Source of the DNA: Paraburkholderia edwinii
Lineage (GTDB): Bacteria; Pseudomonadota; Gammaproteobacteria; Burkholderiales; Burkholderiaceae
Length of the DNA: 64,000 nt
NCBI RefSeq assembly: GCF_019428685.1
Contig: NZ_CP080095.1
Span: forward strand, 2,666,001-2,730,000
Direction of reading: 5' to 3'
How positions within the stretch are numbered: the stretch's first letter is position 1; every line of letters starts with the position of its first letter. The position numbers and the translations under genes are program-made. Positions 693 to 40,172 of the stretch are shown here, piece after piece. The notes beneath the pieces were generated by a model that was not told where the DNA came from, did no database searches, and saw nothing but the letters and a program-made list of their open reading frames with translations.

Positions 693-3600
693 ATGAACAA
701 AGTCTACAAGGTAGTATGGCCGGGACACCGGGAGCGCCAGGCGCAACGCAGCAAAATGAGCGCTGCCGCGATCATGTCGATATGTCTAGGGGCAATGGCA
801 GTTCCCCAGCAGGCGTCGGCTCAGTATGTTGCGGGACCAGGCGCAACGGCTACCGGTACTGATGCGACAGCGGTTGGCCCCGTTGCAACGGCTGCGGGCA
901 CCGACGCGACCGCCGTTGGGCCCGGCGCCACGGCGACCGGAGCGAACGCGACTTCATATGGGCACGCCGCATCGGCATCGACCGATAGCGCCACGGCCAT
1001 CGGAGGGAATTCCCAGGCAAGTCAAAATGGTTCGACGGCGATCGGGATCAACTCGCAGGCAACCGGCGTCAACGCAACCGCGCTCGGAGACACAGCGACA
1101 GCGTCCGCAGAGAACGCGAACGCAATCGGGGATTTTTCAACGGCGTCCGGAATTGGTAGCACAGCGCTCGGTGCCGGCGCCAATGCAGTCGCCGATCATT
1201 CTGTTGCCGGCGGATTCGATGCGAGGGCCTCAGGTCTGTCATCGATTGCGATCGGCGACACGTCCGTCGCCGCAAGCAACCAGTCAACGGCGTTAGGGTC
1301 GAGTGCATCGGCGGCGGCAGTAGCTGGAACCGCTTTGGGGAATCAGTCGGTCGTCGCTGCAGGCGCAGATAGCGGCGTAGCGGTCGGAAGCGGCGCAGTG
1401 TCGAGTGGTATCGCGGCCGTCGCGCTCGGTACGAACGCAGGCTCGGCGGGCACAAGTTCGATCGCCATCGGCGCGGGTGGCGGCACGGGGGCCGGACTGG
1501 GCACCCAGGCAACCGGCAATCAGTCGATAGCCATTGGCTTTGGCAGTACGGCAACCGCTCAATCGGCGGTGGTTTTTGGGCCGAACTCCATCGCATCAGC
1601 AGCCAGTTCAGTCGCGATCGGCGACACGGCGACCGCAAACGCGGCCGGCGCGATCGCGATAGGGCAGACCGCCACTGCAACCGGCGGCAAGGCGGTATCG
1701 ATCGGCGTCGGTAACACCGCGTCAGGTGACGGTGCGGTCGCGATCGGCGATCCGAATACCGCGACGGGTACCGGCGCTGTGGCGATGGGCGCAAACAACA
1801 CGGCAAACGGGCAGGGTGCCGTGGCGCTAGGAAACACGTCTGTGGCGACGGGCCAAGGCGCCGTCGCACTTGGCAATGCATCGCAGGCCAACACCGCGGG
1901 ATCGGTCGCGCTGGGCGACACTGCGGCGGTGCAGGCCGCTGGCACGAACGGTGTGGCGCTGGGTTCCGGCGCGACGGTTAGCGTTGCCAACAGCGTAGCG
2001 CTCGGCGCGGGCTCGACGACGGCTGCGGCGGTTCCGGTTGCGGGCGCAACGATCGGCGGAAACAACTACACGTTTGCCGGCGCGGCGCCTGCCGGCGTGG
2101 TGAGCGTCGGCGCCGCTGGCGCGGAACGGCAAATCCAGAACGTCGCTGCGGGCCAGCTGAGTCAGACCAGCACCGACGCCGTGAATGGTTCACAGCTCTT
2201 CGCGACCAACCAGCAGGTCGATGCGAATACGACCGCCATCTCGAACATCAGCAATGGCGGAGGCATCAAGTATTTCCATGCGAACTCCACGGCGGCGGAT
2301 AGTCAGGCCACCGGCACGGACAGCGTGGCCATCGGTCCGCTTTCCGTTGCGGGCGGAGCGAGCAGCCTCGCTGCCGGCAACGGCGCGCAGGCAACCGTCG
2401 ACAACAGTCTCGCGCTCGGCTCGCAATCGAATGTCTCCGTCACGGGGGGCGTGGCGATCGGCTCCGGCTCGGTGTCCGATCGTGCTATCGCGCCAGGCGT
2501 CGGTTCCATTCCAGCGGGAAGTCAGTCGGTGCCGTTCAACACTGCCGATGCCACGTTGCTCGGTGCCGTATCCTTCGGAAGTGCGACCGGCAACACCTTC
2601 CGTCAACTGACCAACGTCGCGGACGGTACCCAGCCGCATGATGCGGCCACGATCCGGCAGCTGACCGGCGCGCTTCAATCCTTTGCGGTGACGCCGACGC
2701 TCTACTTCCACGCGAACTCGGCGGCGGCAGATTCGTTGGCGGTAGGCGCCGAGTCGATCGCGGTGGGCCCGACCACGGTGGTTAATGGCGACAACGGCGT
2801 CGGTATCGGTCACGGTGCAATCGTTCAGCAGACTGCACCGGGTGGCGTCGCAATCGGCGAAGCTGCAAATTCCGGTGATGCCGACGCCATTGCGCTTGGC
2901 AGCGGTGCCACCGCGAACGGCGCTCAATCGATCGCGCAGGGTGCGAATGCGAGCGTGACGGGAGCGGGTGGTGTGGCACTCGGCTCGGGCGCGCAAAGCA
3001 CTGCGACCGATGCAGTCGCATTGGGCTCCGGTTCAAGTGCCACGTTTGCCAATAGTGTCGCCATTGGTGCGGGATCTCAGACCACCGTCGGCGCATTGAC
3101 CAACTATATCGCTTACGGATTGAGCAGCCCTCAGTCGTCGGCGGGCGAGGTCAATGTCGGCAACCGGCAGATCACCGGCGTTGCCGCGGGCAGTCAGGGT
3201 ACGGATGCCGTCAACGTGTCTCAACTGCAGTCGGTGCAAAACCAGCTGACCACGTTGATCCAGAATTCCAATGGTGGCGGCGGTGGCACATTTAACTCTA
3301 ACCCGGGCTCGACCTCGCAGCCCGCGTCGTCAGGGGCCAACTCATCGGCGGGTGGGCTCGGCGCCGTGGCTTCCGGAACCAACAGTTCCGCCGTCGGCAA
3401 CGGTTCGCAGGCGAGCGGCAATAACTCCACTGCGGTTGGCGCGGGCGCGTCCTCAAGCGGCAATAACTCGGCCGCAGTGGGCGCGGGCAGTAACGACGAC
3501 GGCCGCTCGAACGTCGTGTCCGTCGGCACCACCGTGAATCAGCGCCAGGTGACGAATGTCGCCGCGGGTACGCAAGGCACCGACGCGGTGAACCTCGATC

Positions 3601-15617: not shown

Positions 15618-18623
<3,006 letters not shown>

Positions 18624-22235: not shown

Positions 22236-23897
22236 ATGCCAGGTACCTTCGACTATGTCGTGGTCGGCGCCGGTTCGGCCGGCTGCGTCCTTGCCAACCG
22301 GCTCTCGGAAGGCGGCCGCTATTCGGTCTGCCTGCTCGAAGCGGGCCCCGCCGACCGCTACCTGTGGATTCATATTCCGATCGGCTACGGCAAGACGATG
22401 TTTCACCCGGTCTACAACTGGGGCTTTCATACCGAGCCGGACCCGAATATGAACAACCGGCGGCTGTACTGGCCGCGTGGCCGCACGCTCGGCGGCAGCA
22501 GTTCGATCAATGGCCTGATTTACGTGCGCGGTCAGAAAGAGGACTACGACCGGTGGGCCGCGCCAGGCAATCGCGGCTGGAGCTGGGACGACTGTCTGCC
22601 GTACTTCCGGCGGCTCGAACACAACGAACTCGGCGCGGGGCCGACACGCGGCGTCGATGGGCCGCTGTGGGCCTCGACGATCCGTCAGCCGCATGCGCTC
22701 GTCGACGCGTTTATCGCGGCGTCGAACCGGCTCGGCGTGCGCACCGTCGACGATTTCAACACGGGCGACCAGGAAGGCGTCGGCTACTACCAGCTGACGA
22801 CGCGTCACGGCTGGCGCTGCTCGACGGCGGTCGCATATCTGAAGCCCGCGCGCCATCGTGCGAATCTGCATGTGGAAACCAATGCGCTCGCTTCGCGTAT
22901 CCGCTTCGACGGCACGCGGGCGACTGGCGTGCGATTTCTACAGCATGGCGAGATGCGCGAGGTCAGCGCGCGGCGCGAGGTGATCCTGACCGCAGGCGCG
23001 TTGCAGTCGCCGCAATTGCTGCAGTTGTCGGGCGTCGGGCCCGCGGCGTTGTTGCGCGAGCTCGGCATTCCGGTGGTCGCGGACCGCGCCGGCGTCGGCG
23101 CAAACCTGCAGGACCATCTGCAAGTCCGTTTGATCTACGAAGTGACGAAGCCGATCACGACCAACGATCTGATGCAGTCATGGATCGGTCGAGCAAAAAT
23201 GGGCCTCGAATGGGCGCTGTTTCGCAGCGGGCCGCTGGCCGTCGGTATCAACCAGGGCGGCATGTTTTGCCGCGCCTTGCCCGAAGAAGCGCAAACGCCC
23301 GATATCCAGTTTCATTTCTCGACGCTTTCCGCCGATTCCGCGGGCGGCGAAGTCCATGCGTTTCCCGGCTGCACGTATTCGATTTGCCAGTTGCGTCCCG
23401 AATCGCGCGGCACCGTGCGAATCAGGTCGACCGATATGCGCGATGCGCCGTCGATCGTGCCGAACTATCTTGCGACCGATCTCGACCGCCGCACGACCGT
23501 GGCTGGCGTGCGCTTCGCGCGCCGCGTCGCGGCCACGCAGCCGATGGCCGCGCTGATGAAGCGCGAAGTGCGTCCCGGCGCCGATGCGCAAACCGACGAC
23601 GAACTGCTGCACTTCTGCCGCGAATACGGGCAGACGATCTTTCATCCGTCGGGCACGGCGAAGATGGGGACGGCAGGCGATCCGCTCGCGGTCGTCGACG
23701 AACGTCTTCGTGTGTATGGAACGCGCGGCCTGCGCGTGGTCGACTGTTCGATCATGCCGACGCTCGTCTCCGGCAATACGAATGTGCCGATCGTGATGGT
23801 GGCGGAGAAAGCGTCCGACATGATTCTCGACGATGCGCGCGCGGCCGATGCGGCGCACCGCGAGAACGTGCCGGCAGCCGCGGCAGCGGAAGTTTGA
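22236..23897 (+). CDS. iseJ: GMC-family flavoprotein dehydrogenase, probable isethionate dehydrogenase
   Basis: 553 residues. FAD-binding motif VVVGAGSAGCVLANRL (G11-G16), GMC signature 1 (PRGRTLGGSSSINGLIYVRG), signature 2 (TAGALQSPQLLQLSGVGP) and the catalytic HPSGTAKMG His near residue 470 with SGNTNVP after it. It resembles choline dehydrogenase, but no betaine genes are present. Its neighbours are an IclR regulator, an MHS symporter and a full sulfoacetaldehyde pathway, matching IseJ, which oxidises isethionate to sulfoacetaldehyde in C. necator. AGGAG lies nine bases upstream. Electron acceptor is probably a membrane cytochrome or quinone. Confidence 0.75.
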   Translation: MPGTFDYVVVGAGSAGCVLANRLSEGGRYSVCLLEAGPADRYLWIHIPIGYGKTMFHPVYNWGFHTEPDPNMNNRRLYWPRGRTLGGSSSINGLIYVRGQKEDYDRWAAPGNRGWSWDDCLPYFRRLEHNELGAGPTRGVDGPLWASTIRQPHALVDAFIAASNRLGVRTVDDFNTGDQEGVGYYQLTTRHGWRCSTAVAYLKPARHRANLHVETNALASRIRFDGTRATGVRFLQHGEMREVSARREVILTAGALQSPQLLQLSGVGPAALLRELGIPVVADRAGVGANLQDHLQVRLIYEVTKPITTNDLMQSWIGRAKMGLEWALFRSGPLAVGINQGGMFCRALPEEAQTPDIQFHFSTLSADSAGGEVHAFPGCTYSICQLRPESRGTVRIRSTDMRDAPSIVPNYLATDLDRRTTVAGVRFARRVAATQPMAALMKREVRPGADAQTDDELLHFCREYGQTIFHPSGTAKMGTAGDPLAVVDERLRVYGTRGLRVVDCSIMPTLVSGNTNVPIVMVAEKASDMILDDARAADAAHRENVPAAAAAEV

Positions 23898-26398: not shown

Positions 26399-27898
26399 AT
26401 GAATGTCAGGGCAAGTCATGCTGAAGTCGGGGCGCACGGGGTAAACGCGAATGCAAGTGCGAAGGCAAGCACGCAGGCAAACGCGGACAGCAACGTCGCC
26501 GAAGAGGTGGCCGCGCTCGTCGGCCGCGCCCGCATCGCGCAACGCGAATTCGAGCGGGCCGGGCAGGACGCACTCGATATGGCCGCTGCCGCTGCCGCAT
26601 GGGCGATCATGGAGCCGGGGCGCAACCGGCAACTGGCGGAACTGTCGGTGCGGGACACCGGCCTCGGCAACGTCGACGACAAATTCCGCAAGAACTATCG
26701 CAAGACGCTAGGTCTCCTGCGCGATCTGCATGGACAGAAGACCACCGGCGTCATTGCACGCGACGCAGCAAACGGCATCGTGGAAATCGCGCGCGCGGTC
26801 GGCGTCGTCGCCGCCATCACACCGTCGACGAACCCGGCCGCGACGCCCGCGAACAAGATCGTGAACGCGCTCAAATGCGGCAATGCGGTAATCGTCGCGC
26901 CATCACCTAAAGGCTATTCGTCGTGCGCGCTGCTAGTTGGCTTTATTCACGCACAGCTCGAGAAGGCCGGACTGTCGCCCGACCTCGTGCAGATGCTGCC
27001 CGCGCCGATCAGCAAGGCCGCCACCGCCGAGTTAATGCGGCAAGCGGACCTTGTCGTTGCAACGGGCTCGCAGGCCAACGTACGCATGGCCTATGCGAGC
27101 GGCACGCCGGCGTTCGGCGTGGGCGCGGGCAATGTCGCATCGATCGTCACCGCATCGGCCGACTTGCATGATGCGGCGCGCAAGATCGCGCTCTCGAAGA
27201 CCTTCGACAACGCGACGAGCTGTTCGTCGGAGAACAGCGTCGTGATCGAAGACGCCGTGTATCAGCCGATGCTCGATGCACTGGCCGCATGCGGCGGTGT
27301 GCTGCTCGACAACGATCAGAAGGCGAAGCTGCAAGCGACGATGTGGCGCGACGGCAAGCTGTCGCCGCAATGCACGGCGCGTTCGGCGGCGGTGATCGCG
27401 CGCGTCGCGGGCCTCGACGAGATTGCCGAGAGCGGCCCCAGGTTTCTGATGGTGAAGGAAACCGGTTTTGGCGAGCGCTATCCGTTTTCGGGCGAGAAGC
27501 TCGCGCCGGTGTTGACCGTCTATCGCGCGCGCGACTTCGAACATGCGGCGGAGATTGTCGGCGACATCTATTCGTATATGGGCGCGGGGCATTCGGTTGG
27601 CCTGCATATCAGCCGGGATGCGGCCGATACCGGGCAGGCGGTCGAACTCGGCGAAACGCTGCCGGTTGCGCGCGTGATCGTCAACCAGGCGCATTGCCTC
27701 GCGACCGGCGGCAATTTCGACAATGGCCTGCCTTTCTCGCTGTCGATGGGCTGCGGCACATGGGGACGCAATAACTTCTCCACCAATCTGAACTTCCATC
27801 AGTACCTGAACATCACGCGCGTCGCGTATCCGATCGAGGAACGCGTGCCCGAAGCGGACGATCTGCTTGGCGAATTTTTCCGGAGGGTCGGACGATGA
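26399..27898 (+). CDS. sauS: CoA-acylating aldehyde dehydrogenase, probable sulfoacetaldehyde dehydrogenase
   Basis: 499 residues, aldehyde-dehydrogenase superfamily of the acylating EutE/SauS kind. Seen: VGVVAAITPSTNPAATPANK, CGNAVIVAPSPKG, GVGAGNVASIV and the catalytic Cys near residue 275 in NATSCSSEN. An Ala/Asn-rich N-terminal ~35 residues are probably disordered. It overlaps the CoA ligase gene by four bases. In C. necator, SauS reduces sulfoacetyl-CoA to sulfoacetaldehyde with NADPH; context here (ligase, transporter, Xsc, Pta) supports the same step. Alternative: a succinate-semialdehyde- or acetaldehyde-type acylating enzyme. Confidence 0.8.
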   Translation: MNVRASHAEVGAHGVNANASAKASTQANADSNVAEEVAALVGRARIAQREFERAGQDALDMAAAAAAWAIMEPGRNRQLAELSVRDTGLGNVDDKFRKNYRKTLGLLRDLHGQKTTGVIARDAANGIVEIARAVGVVAAITPSTNPAATPANKIVNALKCGNAVIVAPSPKGYSSCALLVGFIHAQLEKAGLSPDLVQMLPAPISKAATAELMRQADLVVATGSQANVRMAYASGTPAFGVGAGNVASIVTASADLHDAARKIALSKTFDNATSCSSENSVVIEDAVYQPMLDALAACGGVLLDNDQKAKLQATMWRDGKLSPQCTARSAAVIARVAGLDEIAESGPRFLMVKETGFGERYPFSGEKLAPVLTVYRARDFEHAAEIVGDIYSYMGAGHSVGLHISRDAADTGQAVELGETLPVARVIVNQAHCLATGGNFDNGLPFSLSMGCGTWGRNNFSTNLNFHQYLNITRVAYPIEERVPEADDLLGEFFRRVGR

Positions 27899-32535: not shown

Positions 32536-33501
32536 TTAGAACGTCGCGGCCAGCTCTTTGGCCGCTTCCTGCAGACGCGGCACGAATTCGAGTGCGCGCG
32601 GCAGCGGCGTGCGCGACACCGGCGCATGCACGGCGACCGCGGCGATGCATTGGCCTTGTTCATCGATCACGGGTGCGGCCACGCATGCAATGCCGATGAC
32701 GAATTCCTCGTTATCGACCGCAATCCCTTTGTGCGCGATGCGATCGAGTTCGCTTTCGAGCAGTTCCGGGTCGGTTAGCGTGTTCGCCGTGAAGCCGTGG
32801 AAGTGCATCGCGCGAATCAGCGCCGAACGCTCGTCGCGCGGCAGCATCGCAAGCAACAGCTTGCCGCTTGCGCTGCAGTAAGCGGGCACATGCGAGCCCG
32901 GTTTCAGATCGAGACGCAATGGCCACGGCGCTTCCATCCGGTCGAGGTAGAGCACCTCGGTTTCGTGCAGCATCGTCAGGTTGCAGGTCTCGCCGAGATC
33001 GGCCACGAGCCGCCCGAGAATCGCGTGACGCAGGCGCCGCGCGCCCGAATGCATCATCACGCCGAGTCCCAGTTGCGACAGGCGCGGACCGATCACATAC
33101 GCGTTCTTTTGCCCCGGTTCGCGAATCACGAGGCCGCCCGCTTCGAGCGACGCGAGCATGCGGTGCAGCGACGCCTTCGGCAGGTCGATGTCGTGAGCGA
33201 TATCGGCAAGCGACACGGGACCGTTCGCCGCGATCAGATGTTCGAGCAGCGAAAACGCGCGCAGTGTCGGGGTATCCGCCTTGTTCATGTCCGCCGTTCC
33301 GGAAAATGGATCGGCCGTATTGTACTGAAATGCCTTGGCCTGCCGTGCGGCGGAATGATCGGCAGGGTGTGTTTCGGGTGTCGAGGGGAATGCGCCGGGT
33401 CGGTTTTCGGAACGCGTGCCTCCTGCGGTTCCGGTGGCATGTGCGTCGGTGACGGGCGTTTGCGGTGGTGCTGCGTCTGCGGTGGAATCGATCGATGACA
33501 C
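32536..33501 (-). CDS. IclR-family regulator of the xsc/cobST module
   Basis: 321 residues from a GTG with GGGAGGG seven bases upstream. The first ~71 residues are a disordered Ala/Thr/Pro-rich extension; a start at the internal Met (33288) would give a normal 250-residue protein but its ribosome site is weak. HTH at ~85-135 (ALADIAHDIDLPKASLHRML type), effector domain with LGETCNLTML and VPAYCSASGKLLLAML. Its promoter is nearly duplicated in front of xsc, so it likely regulates both itself and xsc. Paralogue of the two other IclR genes in the cluster. Confidence 0.85.
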   Translation of the reverse strand: MSSIDSTADAAPPQTPVTDAHATGTAGGTRSENRPGAFPSTPETHPADHSAARQAKAFQYNTADPFSGTADMNKADTPTLRAFSLLEHLIAANGPVSLADIAHDIDLPKASLHRMLASLEAGGLVIREPGQKNAYVIGPRLSQLGLGVMMHSGARRLRHAILGRLVADLGETCNLTMLHETEVLYLDRMEAPWPLRLDLKPGSHVPAYCSASGKLLLAMLPRDERSALIRAMHFHGFTANTLTDPELLESELDRIAHKGIAVDNEEFVIGIACVAAPVIDEQGQCIAAVAVHAPVSRTPLPRALEFVPRLQEAAKELAATF

Positions 33502-33544
33502 GGGGGTTCCCTCCCGGGCGCTAGATTCGTTGAATGAATTTAGC

Positions 33545-33559
33545 GGAACAATTTGTTCC
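33545..33559. promoter_or_regulatory. Operator GGAACAATTTGTTCC (IclR gene, downstream site)
   Basis: Perfect 15-base palindrome (centre base aside) about 25 bases downstream of the predicted minus-strand -10. The same arms GGAAC/GTTCC recur at the matching place before xsc (39504-39518). Probable IclR binding site. Confidence 0.75.
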
Positions 33560-33579
33560 CGACAGCGGGATATGGATCA

Positions 33580-33608
33580 AATGTAGGCCACCAGCGCGTA
33601 TCGGTCAA
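33580..33608 (-). promoter_or_regulatory. Promoter of the IclR gene (TTGACC-N17-TACATT)
   Basis: On the minus strand -35 TTGACC (33603-33608) and -10 TACATT (33580-33585) are 17 bases apart. The identical -10, spacing and near-identical -35 occur upstream of xsc. The promoter is bracketed by two operator-like palindromes. Confidence 0.75.
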
Positions 33609-33626
33609 CTTTATAGATAAATAAAC

Positions 33627-33641
33627 GGTACGATTTGTATC
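33627..33641. promoter_or_regulatory. Operator GGTACGATTTGTATC (shared by IclR and cobS promoters)
   Basis: Imperfect palindrome of the GGWAC-N5-GT type, 82 bases from the other site and preceded by ATAAATAAAC, which is conserved at the xsc copy (39588-39602). It overlaps the plus-strand -35 of cobS, so bound regulator would block or position polymerase there. Confidence 0.7.
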
Positions 33642-33663
33642 TAAAAATGAATCGGTTTATGAT
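33635..33663 (+). promoter_or_regulatory. cobST promoter (TTGTAT-N17-TATGAT)
   Basis: -35 TTGTAT (33635-33640) and -10 TATGAT (33658-33663) are separated by 17 bases. The -35 lies inside the operator GGTACGATTTGTATC. This makes cobST expression likely to follow the same regulator as xsc. Confidence 0.6.
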
Positions 33664-33739
33664 GGCTTGTGCGGTCGAATGGACCGTGTGAGCGGATTGT
33701 ATGAGCGGACCGACGGGCGGGCCGTATGAGGAGAGGGAC

Positions 33740-34729
33740 GTGACCGAGATCGAGACCGGCAAGCCGGACCGCAGCGTCGATGCGCGCAGCGTATTCGGCA
33801 TCGACGTTGACCTGAAGGTGCCGGCCTTCAGCGAACGGGACGACCACGTGCCCGAAATCGACGACGTCTACCAGTTCAACCCGCCAGTCACGCTCGCGAT
33901 TCTTGCCGGCTTTATGTGCAACCGGCGCGTGATGGTTCAGGGCCTGCATGGCACGGGGAAGTCGTCGCATATCGAGCAGGTCGCGGCACGCCTGAACTGG
34001 CCCTGCGTGCGGATCAATCTCGACGGTCATATCAGCCGGCTCGATCTGGTCGGCAAGGATGCGATCGTCGTGCGCGATGGCGCGCAGGTGACCGAGTTTC
34101 AGGAGGGCATCGTGCCGTGGGCGCTGCAGCGGCCAGTCGCGCTCGTGTTCGACGAATACGATGCGGGGCGCCCCGATGTGATGTTCGTGATTCAGCGCAT
34201 CCTTGAAACGGACGGCAAGTTCACGCTGCTCGATCAGAACCGCGTGATTCATCCGCATCCGGCGTTCCGGCTGTTTGCCACCGCCAACACGGTCGGGCTC
34301 GGTAACCTGAACGGGCTTTATCACGGTACGCAGGCGCTCAATCATGCGCAGATCGACCGCTGGAATGTGGTTGCTAATCTCGACTATCTGTCGCGTGACG
34401 ACGAGATTCGCATTGTGCTGGCGCGTGTGCCCGAACTCGCCGATGCACGCGGCCGCGAGCTCGTCGAATCGATGGTGAGCGTGGCCGAGCTGACGCGCAA
34501 GGGCTTTGCGACCGGCGATCTGTCGACGCTGATGTCGCCGCGAACCGTGATCAACTGGGCGGAGAATATCGGCATCTTTCGCGATGCGGGGCTCGCGTTT
34601 TGCCTCACGTTCCTGAATAAATGCGATGAGGCCGAGCGGCCGATCGTGGCTGAATACTTTCAGCGGGCGTTCGACAAGGAGCTTCCGTCGTTCGAAGGCG
34701 CCGGCGCGCTTGCGGTGGAAACGCGATGA
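33740..34729 (+). CDS. cobS: CobS-like MoxR-type AAA+ ATPase
   Basis: 329 residues, the usual CobS length. Start is the GTG at 33740 with AGGAG about six bases upstream; the ATG at 33701 lacks a ribosome site. Walker [10 protein letters not shown] near 68-76, DLVGKDAIV, Walker [15 protein letters not shown] near 134-147, sensor 1 [11 protein letters not shown] and ATG-type CobS motif [19 protein letters not shown]. In aerobic B12 synthesis CobS and CobT drive CobN to insert cobalt; no cobN or other cob genes are here. Overlaps cobT by four bases. Position and promoter tie it to the xsc regulon. Confidence 0.88.
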
Positions 34730-36546
34730 ACGACACGGAGCGTGCCGCGATGCAGCGCGCCGCGCGGGCCGAAGCATTGCGCGCGGCGACCGTGCGCGCG
34801 CTTACCGGCGATGCGGCCTTGCATTACAGCGGTGGCCGGTTGTGCCGGAATATGACGCCGTTGCCGTTTCATGCACCACATCTTCGCGTCACGCAGGACG
34901 AGCGGGCGGCGATGGCGGCATCGGCGGGGCACGTGGTTGCATCGGCGTGCTCGTCCTCAGTGTCGTCCTCAGTTGCGTCCGCAGTGTGGTCCTCAGTTGC
35001 ATCCTTCCGCGGCTCAGCCGATAGCGCCGCGTTGCGCACGCTTCATTCGGATACCGAATGGCACAGGCAGCACATGCCCGCCGATCCCGTCGAACGGCTG
35101 CTGTTCGAATCGTTTGAGCAGTTGCGTTGCGAATCGCTGCTGCCGCCCGGCATGCCGGGTCTCGCACACAATCTGCGCGCGCGTTTTGACGCGTGGTCGC
35201 GCGGCGTCTATCTGTCGGGTGTGATCGATGGCGATGCCGGCCTGCTGCTCTATACCGTCGCGCAGATGTGCTGGTCGCGTTTATCGGGCTGGCCGGTGCT
35301 GGAGGAAACCGAAGGGTTGATCGAAGCCACGCGTGCATCGATCGCGCCGGCGATCGGCGTGGCGCTTGCCGGCATGCGGCGCACGCGTCACGATCAACAC
35401 GCCTTTGCGGTTCATGCGCTCGACCTTGCGCAGCGCGTAAGGTCGATGATGGACGCACGGCGCGCCGCCGGCCTCGAAGACGACGATGCCCAAAACCAGC
35501 AGAACGAAGAAGCGGCGCGCAACGCGTTTTCGCTCTTTCTCGAATTTGACGACGGTGATGACGAAGGCATCGCGCTCGCTCATACGGGCGAGAGCAGGGT
35601 GCTGCGCGCATCGGAGCACGGCTATCGCGTGTTCACGAACCGCTACGACCGCGAAGCTTATGCGGCGAGCTTCGTGCGCAAGGCGCTGCTTGCCGAATAC
35701 CGCGAGCGTCTCGACGAACGCATCCGGGCGCAGCCCGTCAACGTTGCAAGGCTCGCGCGCATGCTGAAGGCGGCGCTTGCCGTGCCGGAACGCGACGACT
35801 GGTCGTTTGGCGAGGAAAGCGGGCGCATCGACGGCCGCCGGCTCGCGCAACTGGTCAGCTCGCCGGCCGAGCGGCGCCTGTTCCGTCTCGAGCGGCACAC
35901 GCTGATTTCCGGAGCGATCGTCGGCTTTCTGATCGACTGCTCGGGCTCGATGAGAGCGCAGATCGAGCCCGTGGCAATGCTTGTGGACGTGCTTGCGCGT
36001 GCGCTCGATTGCGCTGGCATTGCGAGCGAAATTCTCGGCTTTACGACGGGCGCGTGGAACGGCGGGCGGGCGCGATCGGACTGGCTCGCTAACGGACGGC
36101 CCGAACATCCTGGGCGGCTCAACGAAGTGCTGAATCTCGTCTTCAAGGATGCCGACACGAGCTGGCGCCGCGCGCGTGCCGATATTGCCGCCTTGCTCAA
36201 AGGCGACCTGTTCCGCGAAGGTGTGGACGGCGAAGCGGTCGAATGGGCCTGCAACCGGATGCGCGCGCATGCGGCCAACCGCCGTGTGCTGATCGTCATA
36301 TCGGATGGCAGTCCGATGGATGCGGCCACCCATCAGGCCAACGACGCGTACTACCTCGACAATCATCTGAAGCAGGTTGTCGCGCAGCAGCGCGCGTACG
36401 GCGATGTCGACGTGCTGGGTCTCGGCGTCGGGCTCGATTTGAGCCCGTATTACCGGTATTCGCTTGCGGTGGATCTGTCGGTTGCGCCCGATATGGCGTT
36501 GTTCTCCGAGGTGGTCCGCTGGATCGGCAAACCCGCGGCGGCCTGA
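34726..36546 (+). CDS. cobT: CobT-like VWA-domain partner of CobS
   Basis: 606 residues. The N-terminal half is helical with a CobT-type pattern; residues ~75-95 are a Ser/Val-rich repeat absent from typical CobT, encoded by TCCTCAGT-type DNA repeats (34951-35004). An acidic patch ([12 protein letters not shown], then FDDGDDEG) sits at ~248-285. The C-terminal VWA domain has the MIDAS DCSGSM near 404, the [12 protein letters not shown] segment and [10 protein letters not shown] near 525, as in cobaltochelatase CobT. ATGA overlap with cobS. Its 3' end overlaps the convergent pta gene by 97 bases. Likely forms a hexameric chelatase-type motor with CobS; client unknown. Confidence 0.87.
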
Positions 36547-37532
36547 GCCTGCACGCAGGTCACTGCGATCACATAGAAGATATCGTCGGCGCAGCAGCCT
36601 CGCGATAAATCGTTGGCCGGCTTGTGCAGGCCTTGCAGCAGCGGGCCGATCGCCTTCGCGCCGCCGATGCGCTCGGCGAGCTTGTAGCCGATATTCCCCG
36701 CATCGAGACTCGGAAAAATCAGCGTGTTCGCATGCCCCTCGACTTGCGAGTGATGCACCTTGCGCAGCGCGATTTCCGCGACGATCGCGGCATCGAGCTG
36801 CACATCGCCGTCGATCGCGAGGCCCGGTCGGGCCGCCTGCACGAGATGAGTGGCCGCCACGACCTTGTCGACGGCTGCGTGTTTCGCGCTGCCGCTCGTC
36901 GAAAACGACAGCATCGCGACGCGCGGTTCTTCCATCAGCAGACTGCGCGCGCTATCCGCGGCGGCCATCGCGATTTCCGACAACTGCTCCGCGTCGGGAT
37001 CGACGACGAGCGCGCAGTCGGAAAAAATCAGCCCGCCTTTCATGGTGTGGAAGGGCTCGCACAACATCATCAGAAAGAAGCTCGAGACGAGCTTGAACGA
37101 CGGGCGGACGCCGATCACCTGTATCGCCGTGCGCACGACGTCCGCGGTGGTGTTGACGGCGCCCGCAATCGATCCGTCCGCGTGACCGAGCCGTACCATC
37201 AGGTTCGCGAAGCACAGCGGATGCAGCACTTCGTGTTGCGCCTGCTCGAGCGTCATGCCTTTCTTGCTACGCAGAGCGAACAGTTCGTCGGCGCAGGCAG
37301 ATGTGAACGCGGATGCGGCAGGATCGACGATGTCGATGCCGGCAAGATCGACGCTGGCTTTTTGCGCAGCATGCCGCGTGCGCTCGGGGTCGCCGACCAG
37401 CACGATGCGCGCAATGCCCGCGACAGTCGCGCGTTGCGCGGCCTCCAGAATCCGTGCGTCTTCGCTTTCGCACATCACGATACGCATCGGGTGCGCACGC
37501 GCCTGCTCGATGATCCGGTTGATCGCTTTCAT
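36450..37532 (-). CDS. pta: Phosphate acetyltransferase
   Basis: 360 residues of the short, single-domain Pta type. Seen: MKAINRIIEQARAHPMRIVM at the start, VRLGHADGSIAGAVNTTADV, SSFFLMMLCEPFHTMKGGLIFSDC, ARPGLAIDGDVQLDAA, ANTLIFPSLDAGNIGYKLAERIGGAKAIGP. It converts acetyl phosphate from Xsc to acetyl-CoA. The last ~30 residues are a non-conserved extension encoded antisense to the cobT 3' end. The start follows xsc by 117 bases containing a strong hairpin; its own ribosome site is weak, suggesting coupling or leader-dependent translation. Confidence 0.92.
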   Translation of the reverse strand: MKAINRIIEQARAHPMRIVMCESEDARILEAAQRATVAGIARIVLVGDPERTRHAAQKASVDLAGIDIVDPAASAFTSACADELFALRSKKGMTLEQAQHEVLHPLCFANLMVRLGHADGSIAGAVNTTADVVRTAIQVIGVRPSFKLVSSFFLMMLCEPFHTMKGGLIFSDCALVVDPDAEQLSEIAMAAADSARSLLMEEPRVAMLSFSTSGSAKHAAVDKVVAATHLVQAARPGLAIDGDVQLDAAIVAEIALRKVHHSQVEGHANTLIFPSLDAGNIGYKLAERIGGAKAIGPLLQGLHKPANDLSRGCCADDIFYVIAVTCVQAQAAAGLPIQRTTSENNAISGATDRSTASEYR

Positions 37533-37576
37533 GGCTGCGCCGTGCGGTTCGACTTCCTGGTCATCCTCATCGAATC

Positions 37577-37624
37577 GGCATTCCCGGCACGCGCGGTGTT
37601 GATCCGCGCGCGGCCGGAAATGCC
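37577..37624 (-). promoter_or_regulatory. Stem-loop between xsc and pta
   Basis: Arms GGCATTCCCGGC / GCCGGAAATGCC extended by CGCGCGG/CCGCGCG surround a loop of about seven bases. Being inside a likely xsc-pta transcript, it could protect the xsc message or attenuate pta. No T-run follows. Confidence 0.65.
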
Positions 37625-37649
37625 GCGCTCATCCCACTCAGACGCGGAC

Positions 37650-39479
37650 TTAGACGTAGTCCTTGTACTTGTCGAGCAGGCGCACGGGCTTCGAGAGCGC
37701 ATCGCGGCGGAACGGATCGCCGAGTTCACGCGTGCACATGATTTCGACGATCGTGGTTTTGCCGTGATTCATCTGCATGTCGATCGCTTTCTTCAGCGCG
37801 GGGCCGACGTCTTCGAGCCTGTCGACGACGATGCCTTCGGCGCCCATCGCCTTCGCGATGCCCGCAAAGCTCGGGCTATCGAGTTCGCCGGCCACGAAAC
37901 GCCGGTTGTAGAAGTCGACCTGGTTCTTCTTTTCCGCACCCCACTGGCGGTTATGGAACACGACCGCGGTGACAGGGATGTTGTGGCGCACGCAGGTGAG
38001 GGTCTCCATCAGGCTCATGCCCCATGCGCCGTCGCCCGCATAGGACACGGCCGGCCGGTGCGGCGCGGCGACCTTCGCGCCGATGATGGTCGGGAACGCG
38101 TAGCCGCAGTTGCCCCAGCTCATCGCGGCGAAGAAGCTGCGCGGCCGGTTAAAGCGCAGGTAGCTGTTGGCGATCGAATTGATGTTGCCGATGTCGGTGG
38201 ACACCATCACGTCTTCCGGCATGGCTTTTTCGAGCTCGCGCAGCACCTGGCGCGGATGCAGATACTGGCCGCCGGTCGGCGTGCGTTCGTTTTTCTGTTC
38301 CTCGATCATGTCGAGGCTGAACGGGTCGCGTTCGTGCGTCCATTCGTCGAGTTCTTTTTCCCACGCGGCCTTTTCGGCGGCGATCTGGCTCGCACGCGCT
38401 TCGCGCGTCGCATCGCTGGTAAGCGTGCGGCCCTTCAGGCGCTCGGTCAGGGCAATGGCGGTGGCCTTCGCGTCGCCGCAAATGCCGACCGAAATCTTTT
38501 TGACGAGGCCGAGCATCTTGTGATCGGCGTCGATCTGGATGATTTTCGCGTTCTGCGGCCAGTATTCGAGGCCGTGCTGCGGCAGCGTGCCGAACGGCCC
38601 CAAGCGCGAGCCGAGTGCGATCACGAGATCGGCCTGCGCAAGCAGCTTCATGGCCGCCTTCGAGCCCTGGTAGCCGAGCGGTCCGCACCACAACGGATGA
38701 CGTGCCGGGAACGAGTCGTTGTGCAGATAGCTGTTGACGACCGGCGCGCCGAGCCGCTCGGCCAGCGCCTTGCATTCGTCGATGGCATCGGCCATGACCA
38801 CACCGCCGCCCGAGATGATGACGGGGAATTTCGCCTGCGCGATCAGATCGGCCGCTTCGTTAAGGCGCTGATCGCCGCCGGCGCCGCGGTCGAGCCGCTG
38901 CGGCTGCGGAATCTCAGCCTTGATCTGGCCGTAGAAGTAGTCGCGCGGAATGTTGAGCTGCGTCGGGCCCATCTCGGACATCGCGCGGTCGAAGCAGCGG
39001 GCCGTGAACTCGGCCATGCGCGCGGGGTGCGTAACGTGCCCCTGGTACTTGGTGAACTCCTGGAACATCGGCAACTGCTTCGCTTCCTGGAAGCCGCCGA
39101 GGCCGATGCCCATCGTGCCCGCTTCGGGCGTCACGACGACGACGGGGCTATGCGCCCAGTAGGCCGCCGCGATCGCGGTGACGCAATTGCTGATGCCGGG
39201 GCCGTTCTGGCCGATGACCACACCGTGGCGCCCCGAGACGCGCGCATAGCCGTCGGCCATATGGCCCGCGCCCTGTTCGTGGACCACGGGAATGAGGCGA
39301 ATACCGGCCGGCGCGAAGATGTCCATCGCGTCCATAAACGCGGAGCCCATGATGCCGAACATGTCTGTCACGCCGTTGGCGGCGAGGGTTTCGACGAACG
39401 CCTCGGAAGGCGTCATGGCCTGCGGACCGGTGACGGTGGCCGTGCTGGGGTTCGAATGCGCCTGATCGTGCTCGCTCAT
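37650..39479 (-). CDS. xsc: Sulfoacetaldehyde acetyltransferase
   Basis: 609 residues, ThDP-dependent. Catalytic Glu68 in VVHEQGAGHMADGYAR; Xsc-type features EAGTMGIGLGGFQEAKQLPMFQ and TKYQGHVTHPARM near 120-150; the ThDP-Mg motif begins GDGAWGMSLMETL near 481 with HNRQWGAEKKNQ. This pattern separates it from acetolactate synthase. It converts sulfoacetaldehyde and phosphate to acetyl phosphate and sulfite. The first ~21 residues precede the conserved MTPSEAFVETL, so a shorter start is possible. Upstream lies a near duplicate of the IclR-gene promoter with two operators. pta follows in the same direction. Confidence 0.95.
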   Translation of the reverse strand: MSEHDQAHSNPSTATVTGPQAMTPSEAFVETLAANGVTDMFGIMGSAFMDAMDIFAPAGIRLIPVVHEQGAGHMADGYARVSGRHGVVIGQNGPGISNCVTAIAAAYWAHSPVVVVTPEAGTMGIGLGGFQEAKQLPMFQEFTKYQGHVTHPARMAEFTARCFDRAMSEMGPTQLNIPRDYFYGQIKAEIPQPQRLDRGAGGDQRLNEAADLIAQAKFPVIISGGGVVMADAIDECKALAERLGAPVVNSYLHNDSFPARHPLWCGPLGYQGSKAAMKLLAQADLVIALGSRLGPFGTLPQHGLEYWPQNAKIIQIDADHKMLGLVKKISVGICGDAKATAIALTERLKGRTLTSDATREARASQIAAEKAAWEKELDEWTHERDPFSLDMIEEQKNERTPTGGQYLHPRQVLRELEKAMPEDVMVSTDIGNINSIANSYLRFNRPRSFFAAMSWGNCGYAFPTIIGAKVAAPHRPAVSYAGDGAWGMSLMETLTCVRHNIPVTAVVFHNRQWGAEKKNQVDFYNRRFVAGELDSPSFAGIAKAMGAEGIVVDRLEDVGPALKKAIDMQMNHGKTTIVEIMCTRELGDPFRRDALSKPVRLLDKYKDYV

Positions 39480-39503
39480 GGTGTCTCCGTACTTACATTA
39501 AAC

Positions 39504-39518
39504 GGAACGAAATGTTCC
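39504..39518. promoter_or_regulatory. Operator GGAACGAAATGTTCC before xsc
   Basis: Arms GGAAC/GTTCC identical to the site at 33545-33559, located 25 bases before the xsc start and ~25 bases downstream of the predicted -10. Probable repressor site of the IclR regulator. Confidence 0.75.
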
Positions 39519-39539
39519 TGAATATTTGTGCATGAGACG

Positions 39540-39568
39540 AATGTAGGTCATCGATAGTTCGTCGTCAA
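39540..39568 (-). promoter_or_regulatory. xsc promoter (TTGACG-N17-TACATT)
   Basis: Minus-strand -35 TTGACG (39563-39568) and -10 TACATT (39540-39545), spacer 17. Matches the IclR-gene promoter at 33580-33608 in all but one hexamer base. Confidence 0.78.
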
Positions 39569-39587
39569 CCTGTTTCGACAAATAAAC

Positions 39588-39602
39588 GGTACGTATTGTC
39601 TC
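39588..39602. promoter_or_regulatory. Operator GGTACGTATTGTCTC before xsc
   Basis: Upstream site about 20 bases beyond the -35, preceded by AAATAAAC and followed by TAAAAAT, both conserved at 33627-33641. Distance to the GGAAC site is 84 bases here and 82 at the other copy, near eight helical turns, which would suit looping. Confidence 0.7.
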
Positions 39603-40172
39603 TAAAAATTTGATGGATGGTCGTGGACAAGAGGGTGGCGGCCGTGCGGCCGGCACTTTCGTGGCGCAACCCCGTCGCGCGGTAGTGACCCTCGCCGCGC
39701 CGATCGTCAGCCCTTGCCATCCGCGACAAATCGGAACGCGGTAAACGCCTGACAAAAATCCGGGTTACCTGGTATGCACCTTGGGATTAGGGTTCCGCCA
39801 TGAAAGCTTTAAGTCCCTCTTTAAAGCGGCCAATCCGTCAGTGCTGGTTCATATTCAATTCGGATATTCGCATGGGATAACTAACGATTAAATTCGGCAA
39901 GACATTTAATTTGCTTTTTTTGAACAGGAAGATTTCGTAGTGTTTGGGTGGCGATTTAACGAGTGCGCTTCGCGCTGGGACGCTTTGCTTCGTCAGCCCT
40001 CGCGCCACGCATGTGTTTATGCACTAGCCTTGCTTTCCAGCGCAACCGCCACACTGAGGTCGAATCGCCGTGTGACCAGAATCGACTGCTGCTAATCGAG
40101 GGTTGAATGATTAGTCTGAAGATTGATTTGCCACATCAGTAGTGCCAAGAACTGAATAACTTGGGAACTGGC
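39603..40172. other. Non-coding region between xsc and the acyltransferase
   Basis: No gene is supported. The left part is GC-rich; the right part (39820-39950) is AT-rich and may hold the promoter of the acyltransferase gene. A short minus-strand frame across the xsc promoter is discounted. Confidence 0.5.

Follow-up and report, generated by a model that had tools for sequence, protein, structure and literature searches.

Among the machines that join a MoxR-class AAA+ ATPase to a protein with a von Willebrand factor A (VWA) domain, the CobS and CobT subunits of the cobaltochelatase CobNST (TIGR01650, TIGR01651; PDB 9ujv, 9uka) are the closest described relatives of the pair studied here. This pair, hereafter named CobST, is encoded in a stretch of 64,000 nucleotides of the Paraburkholderia edwinii genome (contig NZ_CP080095.1, positions 2,666,001 to 2,730,000; the whole stretch is called the window), beside xsc, the gene for sulfoacetaldehyde acetyltransferase (Xsc). 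It shares with the CobST of CobNST the cobS-cobT gene order, the domains, and the Walker and metal-ion-dependent adhesion site (MIDAS) residues, but it scores under both family cut-offs, forms a separate clade, is linked to xsc and not to B12 genes, and is also present in genomes without CobN.

Two other systems invite comparison. The Rubisco activase CbbQO, like the present pair, consists of a MoxR-class AAA+ ATPase and a VWA protein with a full MIDAS. In PMC4660213, CbbQO MIDAS mutants, all but one of them ATPase-active, failed to activate Rubisco, activation needed an acidic surface residue of Rubisco, and the authors predict that in similar pairs, too, the target is bound through the MIDAS and remodelled. 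CbbQ matches CobS weakly (E 1e-7), and the putative client here is a thiamine diphosphate (ThDP) enzyme, not Rubisco. NorQD, as described in PMC13036017, resembles the pair as proposed below in that an AAA+/VWA machine acts on one client enzyme, in its case by inserting metal into cNOR, a nitric oxide reductase; NorQ too matches CobS weakly (E 2.6e-4).

We propose that the CobST-like pair is probably a dedicated, ATP-driven remodeller of one Xsc subtype, labelled type I in this analysis ('type II' and 'other-class' are likewise our labels), on the analogy of CbbQO. A functional link of CobST with C2-sulfonate metabolism, taken by itself, is very likely.

Conservation of cobST beside xsc

In the window, cobS (33701-34729, plus strand, 342 residues) is an intact open reading frame (ORF) for the AAA+ motor, with the Walker B motif VALVFDE, and cobT (34726-36546, plus strand, 606 residues), which overlaps it by 4 bp, encodes the VWA adaptor with MIDAS residues D404, S406, S408, T441 and D527 intact. 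Upstream lies the divergent gene iclR3, coding for an IclR-family regulator (32536-33501, minus strand). Downstream, pta, coding for phosphate acetyltransferase (36450-37532, minus strand), converges on cobT, and is followed by xsc of the CobST-linked subtype (37650-39479, minus strand; TIGR03457 1072 bits, cut-off 676). The intact frames, the family matches and the adjoining genes confirm the initial annotation of a cobS-cobT pair between iclR3 and pta/xsc. No other such matches were found in this 8.3-Mb, two-contig genome. At their 3' ends, pta and cobT share 97 bp (36450-36546).

Conservation of this arrangement was analysed with 14 aligned CobT relatives as query. The best 80 of 279 confirmed stretches were taken, weaker relatives falling outside, and neighbours were sought by tblastn in these 80 loci, retrieved with CobT alone. 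They span Paraburkholderia, Pandoraea, Caballeronia, Burkholderia, Cupriavidus, Ralstonia, Trinickia, Aromatoleum, Thauera and Crenobacter, together with unclassified strains and metagenome-assembled genomes. The cobS gene was present at all 80 loci, and xsc was found near cobST at 72, at a distance of 144 to 6503 bp and with an identity of at least 80%; 66 of these 72 xsc matches covered at least 90% of the full length, and the remaining 6 were cut by a contig end. Four further loci (L050, L066, L075 and L081) had an xsc of 90-91% identity on the same contig, some 13-17 kb from cobST. Other neighbours were pta (71/80), an IclR relative (64/80), a TauE/SafE-type sulfite exporter (PF01925; 52/80) and a gmc gene (47/80). 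A scan for VWA motifs detected such a gene at 80/80 type-I loci and at none of the 31 loci with another type of xsc; the same looser pattern was applied to both sets, and a stricter one gave the same result on the latter.

Clustering of the ORFs of the 80 loci produced apparent antisense artefacts, and no argument rests on it. In a Cupriavidus necator strain (L081, 11693-13751), where xsc is about 17 kb off, two genes that read as AbiEi/AbiEii-like lie directly downstream of cobT. A strain with the same organism name as that of locus L019 has a partial xsc (595 residues) on a contig no longer than 1.8 kb.

Co-occurrence with one Xsc subtype

We then considered whole genomes, 250 of the order and 348 of the phylum (572 distinct genomes), each searched with CobT and Xsc. 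Clade CobT was defined by at least 385 bits over most of the protein, and Xsc matches by E 1e-150 or better. CobT scores were bimodal, 12 genomes reaching at least 385 bits and all other listed matches at most 234. Xsc identities were also split, with 13 genomes at 80% or more and 39 having only matches of 74% or less. All 12 genomes with the CobT clade carry the Xsc subtype of at least 80% identity, and none of the 39 genomes with other Xsc has the clade (Fisher test, not corrected for phylogeny: 5.7e-24 over the 572 genomes, 6.3e-11 over the 52 with xsc). The 12 genomes fall into six families (f1, f4, f9, f17, f48 and f60). The clade is likewise missing from relatives without xsc, namely a genome of the same genus (G237) and those f1 and f48 genomes that appear in the results of both searches; this pattern speaks for the two having been gained or lost together. 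In 10 of the 12 genomes, the matches of cobT and xsc were at most 2.3 kb apart; in the other two they were about 21 kb (G501) and 28 kb (G149) apart on one contig.

CobS was searched in 22 genomes, and was found in the clade member G008. Among 20 genomes of the order with only other Xsc types, 19 had no CobS, and G081 had a canonical one, on another contig than xsc. Together, these comparisons make the genetic link between cobST and xsc well supported.

A conserved motor and a diverged adaptor

CobS and CobT match TIGR01650 and TIGR01651, respectively, and their Pfam domains (CobS_N and AAA_5; CobT and CobT_C) all score over the gathering thresholds. Relative to the equivalog cut-offs, CobS is slightly under (523.8 versus 558.55 bits) and CobT far under (283.1 versus 759.05 bits). 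Identity to canonical proteins was 62-69% for CobS (12 proteins, a thirteenth being aligned over 100 residues only) and 28-41% for CobT (16 proteins). Trees were built with 90 CobS and 92 CobT of the clade and 12 and 16 canonical ones, excluding CobS of less than 70% coverage and proteins with stops; the 16 canonical loci comprise 14 picked from about 130 canonical matches of one genome search and 2 from another. In both trees the clade is separated from the canonical proteins with a split support of 1.0, and the separating branch is four times longer for CobT (1.40) than for CobS (0.34). The five MIDAS residues are invariant in 92/92 clade CobT, and the Walker motifs are conserved. As judged from these sequences, the motor may have been kept while the adaptor was re-aimed. 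An AlphaFold2 model of CobT (mean predicted local distance difference test score 62.2, predicted template modelling score 0.44) was too poor and was set aside.

A regulatory module common to cobS and xsc

An element of 30 bp, AAATAAACGGTACGnnTTGTnTCTAAAAAT, is present twice in the window as exact plus-strand copies, upstream of cobS (33619..33648) and upstream of xsc (39580..39609); no such exact duplication was seen in 100 shuffles. The first copy overlaps the -35 box of a proposed cobS promoter read from the sequence (plus strand; TTGTAT at 33635-33640, a 17 bp spacer, TATGAT at 33658-33663). The initial annotation had placed this -35 box inside an operator-like palindrome recurring at xsc. 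The recurrence is exact over the 30 bp, but the palindrome within the element is, by eye, imperfect. A consensus promoter scan did not report the proposed cobS promoter and gave instead a promoter-like site on the minus strand in each copy of the region, TTGACC-17-TACATT facing iclR3 (33580..33608) and TTGACG-17-TACATT facing xsc (39540..39568).

A second palindrome, GGAACnnnnnGTTCC (GGAAC-N5-GTTCC), starts 74 and 76 bases before the 30-bp element in the two copies: as GGAACAATTTGTTCC between iclR3 and cobS (33545..33559), a possible IclR-type operator, and as GGAACGAAATGTTCC upstream of xsc (39504..39518). Taken alone, this motif is modestly above chance, with 5 matches in the window at no more than one mismatch versus 1.74 expected. 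Two further exact copies, at 3375-3389 and 17854-17868, are distant from xsc and cobST. Because the iclR3-cobS gap aligns well with the region upstream of xsc, over a core of about 110 bases (extent by eye), the two look like copies of one regulatory module.

Across related loci, the element reached a score of at least 17 of 27 upstream of xsc in 58/68 cases and upstream of cobS in 45/78, versus 0/20 and 0/9 upstream of other xsc types. The same score was reached in 1 of 310 random windows taken from loci of other-type xsc; 438 random windows from all scored loci, some of them possibly true sites, averaged 12.8 and scored 23 at most. At 8 of the 80 loci xsc and cobS are divergent, with 178-323 bp between them. 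In 7 of them this gap holds the element at a score of at least 18 of 27; in the eighth, L068, the score is 15. This divergent form is likely the ancestral arrangement or an alternative one.

Features of the type-I Xsc

Sequences of the other Xsc types were taken from the whole-genome searches, the best 120 of the homologue search being nearly all at least 90% identical. Rows were kept when the tblastn match exceeded 90% of the query, measured 560-660 residues and had no internal stop. The alignment holds 82 type-I rows, one row from G133 (discussed below), 22 of type II and 9 of other-class, the latter from genomes that we take to be Alphaproteobacteria; L086, a copy of the window, was replaced by the window protein, and G149 occurs twice among the 82 (L087, L092).

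Type-I Xsc has an acidic insert at about residues 388-404; it lies after the central ThDP domain (Pfam, 206-343) and before the C-terminal one (429-580). The median length of the stretch is 22 residues in type I, 13 in type II, and intermediate (18) in other-class. Within it, E398 is found in 82/82 type-I rows, is a gap in 22/22 type-II rows, and is replaced by R (5) or A (4) in the 9 other-class rows. Outside the insert, Cys99 and Asn434 occur in 82/82 type-I rows, versus Phe and Cys, respectively, in 31/31 rows of the other types. Position 434 presumably lies near the cofactor, judging from related ThDP enzymes. Whatever the role of CobST, this Cys99/Asn434 split may reflect a chemical difference between the types.

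A proposed remodeller of type-I Xsc

CobST has several of the attributes expected of a client-dedicated remodeller, namely a motor with Walker A and B motifs, a VWA partner with a complete MIDAS, and a stable linkage to one enzyme. The neighbourhood, the co-occurrence, the promoter module common to both genes and the lack of CobN in half of the clade genomes searched (see below) all favour the earlier suggestion that CobST is part of the xsc regulon, its target being a C2-sulfonate enzyme and its role outside B12 synthesis. As for the clients then put forward, Xsc proved the most constant partner and is, on balance, the probable one; the GMC dehydrogenase, near cobST at only 47/80 loci, was rejected as a general client.

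For the contact with Xsc, the docking site and the remodelling step, we infer the following scheme. CobS would form the AAA+ motor, and the diverged CobT would dock the client through its VWA/MIDAS site, possibly at the acidic insert of type-I Xsc (388-404, with the invariant Glu398). ATP hydrolysis would then open or reshape Xsc, either completing its assembly or cofactor loading, or clearing an active site that has become inhibited, in the way that CbbQO acts on Rubisco. The more specific idea that the pair is an Xsc activase, repairing or activating a ThDP enzyme, is tentative and somewhat less likely than not. In that case the client would be an Xsc subtype that has Asn434 where other types conserve Cys, and that carries a putative acidic docking insert. 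We know of no other AAA+/VWA machine that repairs or activates a ThDP enzyme.

Several observations weigh against the proposal that CobST is a remodeller of Xsc. First, G133, a genome in a single contig, has a type-I xsc (81% identity) with neither CobT nor CobS, so that CobST is not strictly required there. Since its Xsc keeps most residues of the subtype, with E398 and the acidic insert among them, it is less convincing that these features exist for CobST docking. Second, no xsc was found in the genomes of four of the 80 loci (L006, L019, L041 and L083) in a search covering contigs of at least 3 kb; each of these loci sits either on a short contig or at the end of one. Third, Xsc and CobT distances are correlated (r=0.92 over 73 loci), but so are those of CobT and CobS (r=0.96), and joint inheritance as a block explains part or all of the former correlation. 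Fourth, the 30-bp element fades in distant members, where a score of at least 17 was obtained in a first set at xsc in 6/14 and at cobS in 0/9; in a second set, it was obtained in 2/3 at each gene. Finally, pta is nearly as frequent a neighbour (71/80) as xsc.

In G133 (L090), by ORF reading, xsc and pta are followed by genes for a YeiH-like membrane protein, a flavin adenine dinucleotide-dependent oxidoreductase and a TRAP transporter.

Other clients and other activities

The frequency of pta raises the question of whether the client of the motor is, instead of Xsc, another product of the regulon, be it Pta, the GMC dehydrogenase, the TauE/SafE-type exporter or a transporter. The counts for pta, the TauE-like gene and gmc given above speak for this, as does the fact that MoxR/VWA pairs have been studied with several different clients. 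We nevertheless regard it as unlikely. In distant members xsc is constant, whereas pta was only 28% identical in L096 and was not found in L095 or in L097, the latter being close to a contig end. The pta gene is moreover found beside other-type xsc without the clade (6/9 other-class loci), and in G133, which is devoid of CobST. A TauE-like gene, present at 52/80 related loci, was not found in the 64-kb window. Lastly, the co-distribution is with an Xsc subtype, in a subtype comparison that covered Xsc and not Pta.

It is distinctly improbable that the pair acts as NorQD does and inserts or exchanges a metal, for instance the divalent ion by which ThDP is held, in Xsc or one of its partners. 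ThDP enzymes do use a divalent ion, and ThDP domains are present in the Xsc of the window. A precedent is given in PMC13036017, where an AAA+/VWA pair, NorQD, inserts iron, and Xsc is described as ThDP-dependent in PMC11382572. The other Xsc types belong, however, to the same ThDP family, and have no VWA gene nearby in the motif scan (0/31 loci).

CobN and the B12 operon

The pair had been annotated as lacking cobN, with no other B12 gene near. This is right for the window, within which none of 11 proteins of the genome's own B12 operon has a match, but not for the genome: cobN (TIGR02257 1579 bits, cut-off 822) is on contig C2, together with that operon. The order there is a cobW-like gene, cobN, a gene for a ChlI-like ATPase (400 residues) and one for a small VWA protein (192 residues), these last two scoring under the cut-offs of their best NCBIfam models; in the locus numbering of this analysis, cobN, the ATPase gene and the short VWA gene of this genome are at L001 (1084-6299) and L005 (768-1346). 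Reading of the ORFs places cobG, H, I, J, L, K and M alongside cobN. In PMC9227772, a suggestion is reported that ChlI/ChlD can replace CobS/CobT in some species. Such a stand-in would explain how CobN works in this genome, and since genes of this type adjoin cobN, unlike cobST, and lie away from the xsc locus, CobN here probably has its own ChlI/ChlD-type motor.

Among 18 genomes of the CobST clade that were searched, CobN was absent from 9. Six of them (G501, G008, G192, G090, G443 and G406) are 99-100% complete, and for the other three (L010, L068 and L080) the search covered contigs of at least 3 kb. One of the 9 genomes with CobN, G575, shows fragments only. The clade thus persists without CobN, and its conserved role cannot depend on it. 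All 19 other-class genomes with xsc have a canonical CobT. In 8 of them it is on the contig that carries xsc, at a distance of about 110 kb or more; in the other 11 the two sit on separate contigs, and might still adjoin each other across a gap in the assembly.

What the initial annotation had named as counting against it was found in part: a B12 operon does exist elsewhere, with cobST as the sole CobST of the genome, but that operon has ChlI/ChlD-type genes, and conservation of the xsc neighbourhood is strong. That the pair is an ordinary cobaltochelatase motor working with CobN in B12 synthesis, and beside xsc by accident, fits the high identity of CobS to canonical CobS, the two CobT domains of CobT, and a genome with cobN and no other CobS/CobT, but it is highly improbable, and was rejected as the main role, given the 9/18 clade genomes without CobN, the ChlI/ChlD-type genes directly after cobN, the scores of both proteins under the equivalog cut-offs (CobS only slightly), and the separation of canonical CobT from xsc.

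Implications for annotation and sulfonate metabolism

The sequence family is already known, and we found no function assigned to it. In public records the protein goes by 'cobalt chelatase' or 'cobaltochelatase CobT-related protein', so that B12 inventories could count these genes as such; should CobST serve Xsc, a false sign of B12 synthesis would be present in many betaproteobacterial genomes. A search of open-access papers turned up none that connects CobS/CobT, or a MoxR/VWA pair, with Xsc. Xsc frees sulfite from C2 sulfonates, taurine and isethionate among them. If our proposal is true, a B12-type motor would have been re-aimed at a carbon-sulfur-cleaving enzyme mainly by a change of adaptor, and the pairing of cobST with xsc bears on how such motors choose their clients. 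Should the activase idea also be true, cleavage of the carbon-sulfur bond of taurine-derived sulfoacetaldehyde would cost ATP for enzyme upkeep.

Other features of the window

A scan of the window with Rfam gave no match at gathering scores. Elsewhere in it, sauS (26399-27898, plus strand) codes for an acylating sulfoacetaldehyde dehydrogenase (NF047625 796 bits, cut-off 600), and adjoins a CoA-ligase-family gene that is sauT-like by position only. A GMC oxidoreductase (22236-23897, plus strand), for which the best model over cut-off is a choline dehydrogenase subfamily, is from its context a possible isethionate dehydrogenase. Two major facilitator superfamily transporters are also found in this wider region, which fits the use of C2 sulfonates, e.g. 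sulfoacetate and isethionate.

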